Origin: an uncultured Candidatus Nitrosopumilus sp.
GTDB taxonomy: Archaea > Thermoproteota > Nitrososphaeria > Nitrososphaerales > Nitrosopumilaceae
DNA length: 64,000 nucleotides
Direction of reading: 5' to 3'
NCBI GenBank assembly: GCA_951812655.1
Contig: OX638319.1
Coordinates: 868,001-932,000, forward strand
Positions 8,549 to 16,364 of this stretch are shown piece after piece (position 1 is the first letter of the stretch; the number at the start of each line of letters is the position of its first letter). The notes under the pieces were generated by a model. That model did not search any database, had not been told where the DNA came from, and saw nothing but the letters and a program-made list of their open reading frames with translations. Position numbers and translations under genes: made by a program.

Positions 8549-8601
8549 TATTTTATCTAAATGTACTAACCTTTTAAAACAAGTAGTATCAATGAATATT
8601 C

Positions 8602-8742
8602 ATGGTAGATCAAGCATGTGGATGCGAAGCCGCTAGTGGCGATCCAGATTATGAATGCGATTGTGCAATGCAAGGTCATTGCATCTGTAGTGAAGACTGT
8701 CAGTGTTCAACAGCTGTTTGCAAAGAAGCTACTGGTCGATAA
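8602..8742 (+). CDS. Metallothionein-like Cys-rich peptide, 46 aa
   Basis: The frame from ATG 8602 to TAA 8742 encodes 46 residues of which nine are Cys, arranged as four CxC pairs plus a single Cys: CGC (6-8), CDC (19-21), CIC (27-29), CQC (33-35) and C40, with one His (H26) and many acidic residues. Clustered CxC pairs in a tiny soluble protein are the hallmark of metallothioneins, which bind Zn, Cu or Cd. A TATA-like CTTTTAAAAC lies at 8571-8580, 22-31 bases before the start, which fits a leaderless transcript. Family membership is inferred from composition, not from a recognised motif. Confidence 0.7.
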   Translation: MVDQACGCEAASGDPDYECDCAMQGHCICSEDCQCSTAVCKEATGR

Positions 8743-9073: not shown

Positions 9074-10585
9074 TTGAATAAAATATTTCTAATTCTTCCC
9101 GTTGTCGCTGTCTTATTTCTGGGTTCATCCTTAATTTCGTCAGCATCTGCTCAGTTTCAATCTGGAGGTGTAGATGTTGAAGGTACCTGGTATTCTGGTG
9201 AAGGCCTCAAACAAGGTGACTTCTTTTCTTATTCCATGTGTCATGTTGATTACAAGGAGTGCTCTAACTTTGAATTGGATATGTGGATTAAAGGTGACAG
9301 GCAGATTGGAAGTGAACGTCAATGGGTGACTGAGGTCGTAGTATATGACGGCAACAAGCGTGTTGTTGGCGAACTTCTGTTGGGAAAAGTTGCAGCAGAG
9401 CCCACTGGCGGAAGTGAAGAATTGGGTCTCTATCGTGGGGCATTCAAGTCTTCTGTTGCCTGGCTAGCTGCATTTGCGACATCTGATGATAGCTCCGGCG
9501 GAAAAGGTCCTAAAGAGTTCAAAAGTATCTCTTGGGGTAAGATTGGAAATATTGGAGGCCAACAAGTAATTCCAACGGTTGCTGAAACCGTTACCGTTCC
9601 TGCAGGTACGTGGGAAACTGTTCAGGTCGGGTGGTACACTGGAGGAACTACAAATAGGGTTTGGGTTGTTGATGATTTTCCATTTCCAATAAAAGCTCAC
9701 ACTTACACACATGTCTCAGAAGGAATTCCTCCCACTGAATACGCCTTTGAATTATTAGACTATAAGGAAAATGTCCAAGAGAGTCCATTTTCTGATATTG
9801 TTTCCACTGATGATGAGTTTGCAGCTGCTGGATGTGATACAAATTTTGAAAAAGAAGCTAGTGTAAAGAAACCAACGGTCGGATATGACTATCAGGTTCA
9901 CGTGTTCTACGGTCCTGAAGATCCTGTTGAAGGATGCGAAATGCAATGGCTTATAAAATTTATCAGCAAATTTGATGATACTGAATTTCTAAATCAGGTG
10001 CAGTTTGATGTTTTGACTGTGGATGATAATTTGACTCCGCTCAGATCCATCGCGCAAGAAGAGGGTAGACCTTATCTCTATTCGCCTTCGGGGCAGAGCA
10101 TAATTGATATAATTGTCAAAGAAGAACCTGGCACAGCAAAATATGTGATCTGGATTTACGGCCTGTCTCCTGAGGGAATAGTGCCTTCCAGTGCTTCTGA
10201 CTATTTGGAGGTAGAAATTCCAATATATGCATCTAATGGAACCACTCCTGTTGAAAAAATCCCCGACTGGATTAAGACCAACGCCGGATGGTGGGCCGAT
10301 GGTGCCATAGATGATGCGTCTTTCGTTCAGGGAATACAGTTTCTGATAAAGGAGGGAATCATGAAAATTCCCAAGACCACCCAGGGATCTAGCAGTAATT
10401 CCGCTGATGGAATCCCCGACTGGATTAAGACCAACGCCGGATGGTGGGCCGATGGTGCCATAGATGATGCGTCTTTCGTTCAGGGAATACAGTTTCTGAT
10501 AAAGGAGGGAATCATGAAAGTCCCACAAGCAGTTGCAAAAAGCTCAACTTCCTCTGGTGCAGAGCCTGAAGCCTGGTACCAATAA
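9074..10585 (+). CDS. Secreted protein with two C-terminal WIKTNAGWWADG-type repeats
   Basis: 503 residues, exported: a hydrophobic signal peptide (about residues 3-25) ends near SASAQF. The middle (30-390) is beta-rich with several Cys and no recognised fold. The C-terminus has two copies of a 36-residue module beginning PDWIKTNAGWWADG and containing a VQGIQFLIKEGIMK stretch, a repeat often seen in surface proteins of ammonia-oxidising archaea. The copies are identical over 108 bases. The start codon is TTG. It may bind cell-surface components; that is inference. Confidence 0.8.
   Translation: MNKIFLILPVVAVLFLGSSLISSASAQFQSGGVDVEGTWYSGEGLKQGDFFSYSMCHVDYKECSNFELDMWIKGDRQIGSERQWVTEVVVYDGNKRVVGELLLGKVAAEPTGGSEELGLYRGAFKSSVAWLAAFATSDDSSGGKGPKEFKSISWGKIGNIGGQQVIPTVAETVTVPAGTWETVQVGWYTGGTTNRVWVVDDFPFPIKAHTYTHVSEGIPPTEYAFELLDYKENVQESPFSDIVSTDDEFAAAGCDTNFEKEASVKKPTVGYDYQVHVFYGPEDPVEGCEMQWLIKFISKFDDTEFLNQVQFDVLTVDDNLTPLRSIAQEEGRPYLYSPSGQSIIDIIVKEEPGTAKYVIWIYGLSPEGIVPSSASDYLEVEIPIYASNGTTPVEKIPDWIKTNAGWWADGAIDDASFVQGIQFLIKEGIMKIPKTTQGSSSNSADGIPDWIKTNAGWWADGAIDDASFVQGIQFLIKEGIMKVPQAVAKSSTSSGAEPEAWYQ
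10259..10366 (+). repeat. 108-bp direct repeat, copy 1
   Basis: Identical at the DNA level to 10412-10519, 153 bases downstream. It encodes one WIKTNAGWWADG module. Identity at silent sites shows recent duplication or gene conversion. Confidence 0.95.
10412..10519 (+). repeat. 108-bp direct repeat, copy 2
   Basis: Second identical copy of the module at 10259-10366. The 45 bases between them encode a linker. Beyond the repeat end the two copies diverge at once (ATTCCC against GTCCCA). Confidence 0.95.
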
Positions 10586-16253: not shown

Positions 16254-16364
16254 CTATTTTACCATCTTGGAACATTTTACACAAACAGGAGCCCCATCCT
16301 GAACTGTCACTTCCACATTAGACGAGTGACATTTCTGACATAATCCTTTCATGTGTATTTTCAT
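16254..16364 (-). CDS. Minimal zinc-ribbon protein, 36 aa
   Basis: The frame from ATG 16364 to TAG 16254 encodes 36 residues with two knuckles: CQKCHS (9-14) and CVKCSK (28-33). The spacing C-x2-C-x16-C-x2-C is a compact zinc ribbon. Such proteins may bind nucleic acid or transcription complexes; the role here is unknown. It is convergent to the PRC-barrel gene and divergent from the ABC operon. Confidence 0.7.
   Translation of the reverse strand: MKIHMKGLCQKCHSSNVEVTVQDGAPVCVKCSKMVK

Follow-up and report, generated by a model that had tools for sequence, protein, structure and literature searches.

A nine-cysteine, metallothionein-like peptide conserved across the Nitrosopumilaceae, with a membrane-protein tail version

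The locus, its neighbours and its promoter

The stretch of DNA analysed here (the window, 64,000 nucleotides from an uncultured Candidatus Nitrosopumilus sp.) carries a short ORF whose translated product is MVDQACGCEAASGDPDYECDCAMQGHCICSEDCQCSTAVCKEATGR*. Its cysteines lie at residues 6, 8, 19, 21, 27, 29, 33, 35 and 40, and its histidine at residue 26. Translation thus bore out what the initial annotation had listed: nine Cys in 46 residues, four CxC pairs, C40 and H26. Cysteine makes up 19.6% of the product, which has nine acidic and two basic residues and one Tyr. Among the 272 ATG-started ORFs of 30 to 120 aa in the window, it ranks first for Cys fraction, and no other has four CxC pairs, a number reached by 1 of 14,286 ORFs across 40 Markov-simulated windows. 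Coordinates of all features are collected in Table 1.

Table 1. Features of the locus and related nine-Cys genes
Feature	Position	Strand	Description
Nine-Cys metallothionein-like peptide, 46 aa	8602..8742	+	C-x-C-x10-C-x-C-x5-C-x-C-x3-C-x-C-x4-C; translation and conservation
TATA element TTTTAAAA	8572..8579	+	Inside TACTAACCTTTTAAAACAAGTA (8564-8585)
Promoter block TGTACTAACC-TTTTAAAA-CAAGTA	8562..8585	+	Imperfect inverted repeat TACT...AGTA flanking the TATA box
c1, upstream neighbour, 294 aa	7664..8548	+	Immediately 5' of the peptide gene in 15+ genera (synteny, alignment)
c4, downstream neighbour, 55 aa	8784..8951	-	Starts MCxC, invariant C28; conserved neighbour (synteny)
Tail-protein homologue in own genome	G000:C1:1015691-1016908 (L052:1501-3018), outside window		Exchangeable tail
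Short nine-Cys paralogue MACGCSPNNDNCIDANCNCQKTGVCTCGPNCNCAANKK	L031:1507-1620 = G000:C1:1476743-1476856		Own genome
Two free nine-Cys genes	L035:4001-4159, L035:8571-8714		Genus g9; flank a tail-protein homologue

The order of genes around the peptide gene, comprising c0 (exported), a TPR protein, c1, c2, c3 and c4, is conserved in more than 15 genera. No Pfam match and no PDB relative were found for c1; our impression is that its N-terminal GLGGC...DYDVxVFD faintly resembles a nucleotidyltransferase motif. The c4 gene adjoins the peptide gene in most genera, with 69 to 93% identity to the window copy across genera, and belongs to no known family. In four genomes without the common form of the peptide, a diverged free form (MSDAACGCAA...CDCAMQGECYCDATCDC...) occupies the same locus, which therefore keeps a nine-Cys peptide despite sequence drift. 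No copper gene was a conserved neighbour of the peptide gene, a point against the role proposed below, and a link to defence was rejected, as PADLOC gave no match.

Two other ORFs of the window are recorded here in passing. An exported protein is encoded at 9074-10585 (+), where PDWIKTNAGWWADGAIDDASFVQGIQFLIKEGIMK occurs twice, exactly, at 10262-10366 and 10415-10519. A 36-aa ORF at 16257-16364 (-), with two CxxC pairs (MKIHMKGLCQKCHSSNVEVTVQDGAPVCVKCSKMVK), resembles a tiny zinc ribbon.

Upstream of the peptide ORF, the first T of a TTTAAA hexamer lies 29 nt 5' of the ATG. Across 109 distinct homologous upstream regions, the hexamer starts 28 to 31 nt before the ATG in 106, so that the TATA box with leaderless spacing, proposed initially for this one sequence, turned out to be a conserved feature. 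This fixed distance supports leaderless transcription. A longer conserved block, TGTACTAACCTTTTAAAAyAAGTA, is seen chiefly within the window's genus and in genera close to it. Exceptional conservation of the promoter was rejected by a control on a genus-diverse set, where the upstream regions of c1 and c4 had as many columns at least 90% conserved, or more; since the neighbours' upstream regions are equally conserved, the block does not by itself demonstrate that the gene is specially regulated. A regulon sharing the operator was likewise rejected: at three mismatches or fewer the full block is a single site in its genome, and relaxed operator patterns matched the own genome no more frequently than reversed controls. 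A likeness of TGTACTAACC (8562-8572, +), adjoining the TATA box, to part of TTCSGSMTTTGWACYANT, the copper-limitation motif of N. viennensis (PMC7785015), or of TTTGTACTAAC to this motif, was post hoc and weak, and was left out of the evidence.

Conservation and distribution of the peptide

Of 200 genomes of the same family, 180 gave a match to the peptide in a tblastn-type search, and each of the 22 sampled genera was represented; when the count was restricted to near-complete genomes, the gene was matched in 115 of 119. Named relatives carrying it include records of Nitrosopumilus, Nitrosotenuis, Nitrosopelagicus, Nitrosomarinus, Nitrosarchaeum and Cenarchaeum. A search for close homologues with conserved Cys, suggested by the initial annotation as a check, thus found them, and the refutation named there for want of such homologues falls away. 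All nine Cys proved invariant, with zero exceptions, in 113 of 113 distinct homologous segments, a set picked by similarity alone and unconditioned on Cys.

In the same set, position 26 is occupied by His (70 segments), Ala (17), Ser (14), Glu (7) or Thr (5). The histidine that had been placed beside the Cys pattern is present in the window copy; it is not conserved, hence it is predicted to be no general ligand. No other His is near-invariant either, and Met23 is kept in 111 of the 113 segments. Several further non-Cys residues (G7, E9, A10, S12, G13, D20, Q24 and K41) are, like M23, almost as conserved as the cysteines. At the Cys positions, TGT and TGC interchange freely, and the pooled dN/dS over 94 distinct free copies was about 0.11, slightly biased by the choice of these copies with a pattern requiring Cys.

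Judged by this conservation, the ORF is a true, deeply conserved gene under purifying selection. The opposite explanation, a chance ORF or a leftover without product, might be prompted by its small size and the lack of an annotated family; it is already refuted by the presence of matches in nine-tenths of the family genomes, by the low dN/dS and by the conserved promoter and gene order, and its probability is negligible. The description 'metallothionein-like, probably expressed' is accordingly supported by the invariant Cys of the homologues, the dominance of synonymous changes and the conserved promoter.

Beyond the window's family, 300 genomes from the class and 300 from the phylum were searched with profiles and gave no convincing relative (best E 0.03). 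Viral contigs contained none, and a viral origin was rejected on this ground. Matches are confined to the Nitrosopumilaceae; the peptide is therefore either a family invention or an acquisition that has diverged beyond recognition. None of the curated Pfam and NCBIfam models claims it, and a full-text search of one literature library returned no description of an archaeal metallothionein; Thermococcus gammatolerans is stated to encode no metallothionein orthologue (PMC3407056). From its sequence features, the most fitting label for the peptide is a metallothionein-like family that the libraries searched do not contain, with an unusual membrane-tail version.

The module as a membrane-protein tail

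The initial annotation was too narrow in treating a single peptide, since the module is a Nitrosopumilaceae-wide gene together with the tail of a membrane protein. Its overall interpretation thus stands in part: the metallothionein-like character was upheld and the role of H26 as ligand was not. In many relatives, the nine-Cys module forms the C-terminus of a protein of about 460 aa specific to ammonia-oxidizing archaea (AOA), predicted to be exported with a single transmembrane (TM) segment. Its layout is a signal peptide, an ectodomain, one TM segment, basic residues, a Pro/Gln-rich linker and the tail. The basic residues after the TM segment place the tail inward by the positive-inside rule, from which a cytosolic tail is predicted. 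Within the order, families f1, f2, f3 and f5 have the ectodomain; it was absent from families f4 and f6 to f10 and from the other class members listed. No PDB relative of the tail protein was found at E<=0.001, and its predicted structure is of low confidence (pLDDT 53.7).

The commonest Cys tail among Cys-tailed relatives is CGCAASAEMGSECDCAMQGSCLCDATC... Some tails are nearly identical to the free peptide and retain its start Met (TPTMIDQACGCEAD), which suggests that the free ORF was captured; the module tree, built on 42 columns, is poorly resolved. In several other genera the protein ends in GSMPKGW instead, and in g18 and the window's own genome the tail is an unrelated non-Cys domain. 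By these comparisons, the tail is a module exchangeable by genus, being nine-Cys, an unrelated domain or a GSMPKGW ending. The nine-Cys tail has been replaced in the own genome, where its decayed remnant, EDSCVHSTCA*LTSECDCMMP, lies just 3' of the new tail. As this tail has decayed, the intact copies in the own genome are the free peptide and the short nine-Cys paralogue. The latter is sporadic: at E<=0.1, 37 of the 200 family genomes gave a match, and the weaker of these matches are cross-matches. In genus g9, the tail-protein homologue between the two free genes (L035), which is 25% identical to the reference, ends in a C2C2 zinc-ribbon-like motif.

Proposed function and comparison with known systems

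In sequence, the peptide has what defines metallothioneins as a functional class, being small and Cys-rich, with CxC pairs, few aromatics and Cys conserved across homologues; this makes it a candidate metal binder. We propose that the free peptide is small and cytosolic and would have no ordered fold until metal is bound. Its nine thiolates would then wrap a small cluster of a soft d10 metal, about three Zn or Cd or four to six Cu(I), and the loaded peptide would buffer intracellular metal. Many relatives carry the module a second time, as the tail of the exported single-TM protein, and this copy would be tethered to the inner face of the membrane. AlphaFold gave no confident fold for the peptide (pLDDT 61.5, pTM 0.35); this is what one expects if metal orders the chain, and equally of any short peptide whose alignment is shallow. 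The Cys order agrees with a metallothionein-type cluster, as does a match to PF00131 (Metallothio) that is sub-threshold, at 15.9 bits and E 0.015 against a curated cut-off of 23 bits. Taken together, the sequence data suggest that the peptide is probably a metal-thiolate cluster peptide, a cytosolic metal buffer like a metallothionein beta domain, which the profiles searched assign to no known metallothionein family.

The conserved non-Cys residues tell against a buffer, since they appear to be more than a mere metal sponge needs, and they keep alive a different explanation, that of a structural, zinc-finger-like docking module holding one or two Zn, free or as a membrane tail. It would account for the strong conservation around the Cys (CGCEA.SGDP.Y.CDCxMQG) and for the use of the module as a membrane-protein tail, the g9 relative even having its zinc-ribbon-like tail. 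A search of solved structures also gave a UBR box, as its only match, but this likeness (E 0.017) is at chance level and was rejected as a structural relative. An array of nine Cys with four CxC pairs and no conserved His is, however, unlike the usual zinc fingers or ribbons, no Pfam zinc finger was matched in any of 27 members, and a structural domain sits poorly with the lack of a confident AlphaFold fold. We therefore consider the zinc module unlikely.

The CxC motifs can also form disulfides, and ammonia-oxidizing cells produce reactive nitrogen intermediates, so that the peptide could be a redox-active thiol peptide acting against oxidative or nitrosative stress and no metal binder. With an odd number of Cys, all of them invariant, a thiolate cluster is a better match than disulfide pairs, though, and no thioredoxin-like or other redox domain was matched; this role seems very improbable.

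For the preferred metal-thiolate cluster, copper comes close to an even call as the physiological metal. It is the likelier metal given the dependence of these cells on copper enzymes, and a soft metal such as Cu(I) would suit a peptide in which Met23 is nearly invariant and no His is conserved. That the free peptide and the tethered tail form a two-part copper system of the Nitrosopumilaceae, the tail catching Cu(I) at the inner face of the membrane and exchanging it with the free peptide, is a speculation that we regard as rather improbable. We know of no described metal system that resembles a membrane-tethered metallothionein.

The closest likeness is to the animal metallothionein beta domain (PF00131), which has the same nine-Cys order, four CxC and then C, and is likewise small, disordered-looking and Cys-rich, without an aromatic core. 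PF00131 was matched at E<=1 in 9 of 27 members (best E 0.0078). The spacers are longer in the peptide, 1,10,1,5,1,3,1,4 against 1,5,1,3,1,2,1,2 in the nine-Cys beta domain of mammalian metallothionein (human MT2). The peptide also differs from animal metallothioneins in being acidic rather than Lys-rich, single-domain and archaeal, and in its invariant non-Cys residues with a nearly invariant Met23. Bacterial metallothioneins of the SmtA type (PF02069) are also short, prokaryotic, cytosolic and Cys-rich; in contrast to them, the peptide has no conserved His ligands (position 26 being H, A, S, E or T) and no zinc-finger fold part, and PF02069 was matched at E<=1 in none of 27 members. Like the peptide, the mycobacterial copper metallothionein MymT (4.9 kDa, up to six Cu(I); PMC7558416) is a tiny Cys-rich ORF that easily goes unannotated; the peptide has no curated NCBIfam match.

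The copper storage protein Csp (PF03860) of the Nitrososphaerales has been proposed as a cytosolic copper store of AOA, as we propose for the peptide. Unlike the peptide, it is about 120 aa long and already folded, as a four-helix bundle, and neither the peptide nor its own genome matched PF03860. This model, 21 positions long, was matched in nine genomes of family f3 against one genome of the window's family. The gain of Csp has been placed in the Nitrososphaerales ancestor (PMC7554672), and it is induced under Cu limitation in N. viennensis (PMC7785015). The nine-Cys peptide is complementary to Csp in distribution, which favours copper, the complementarity amounting to one phylogenetic split confounded by ancestry. 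Marine AOA are among the most abundant cells of the sea and heavily copper-dependent, and their internal copper buffering matters. Soil relatives have Csp and the Nitrosopumilaceae are mostly without it; for these, the nine-Cys peptide is a concrete candidate.
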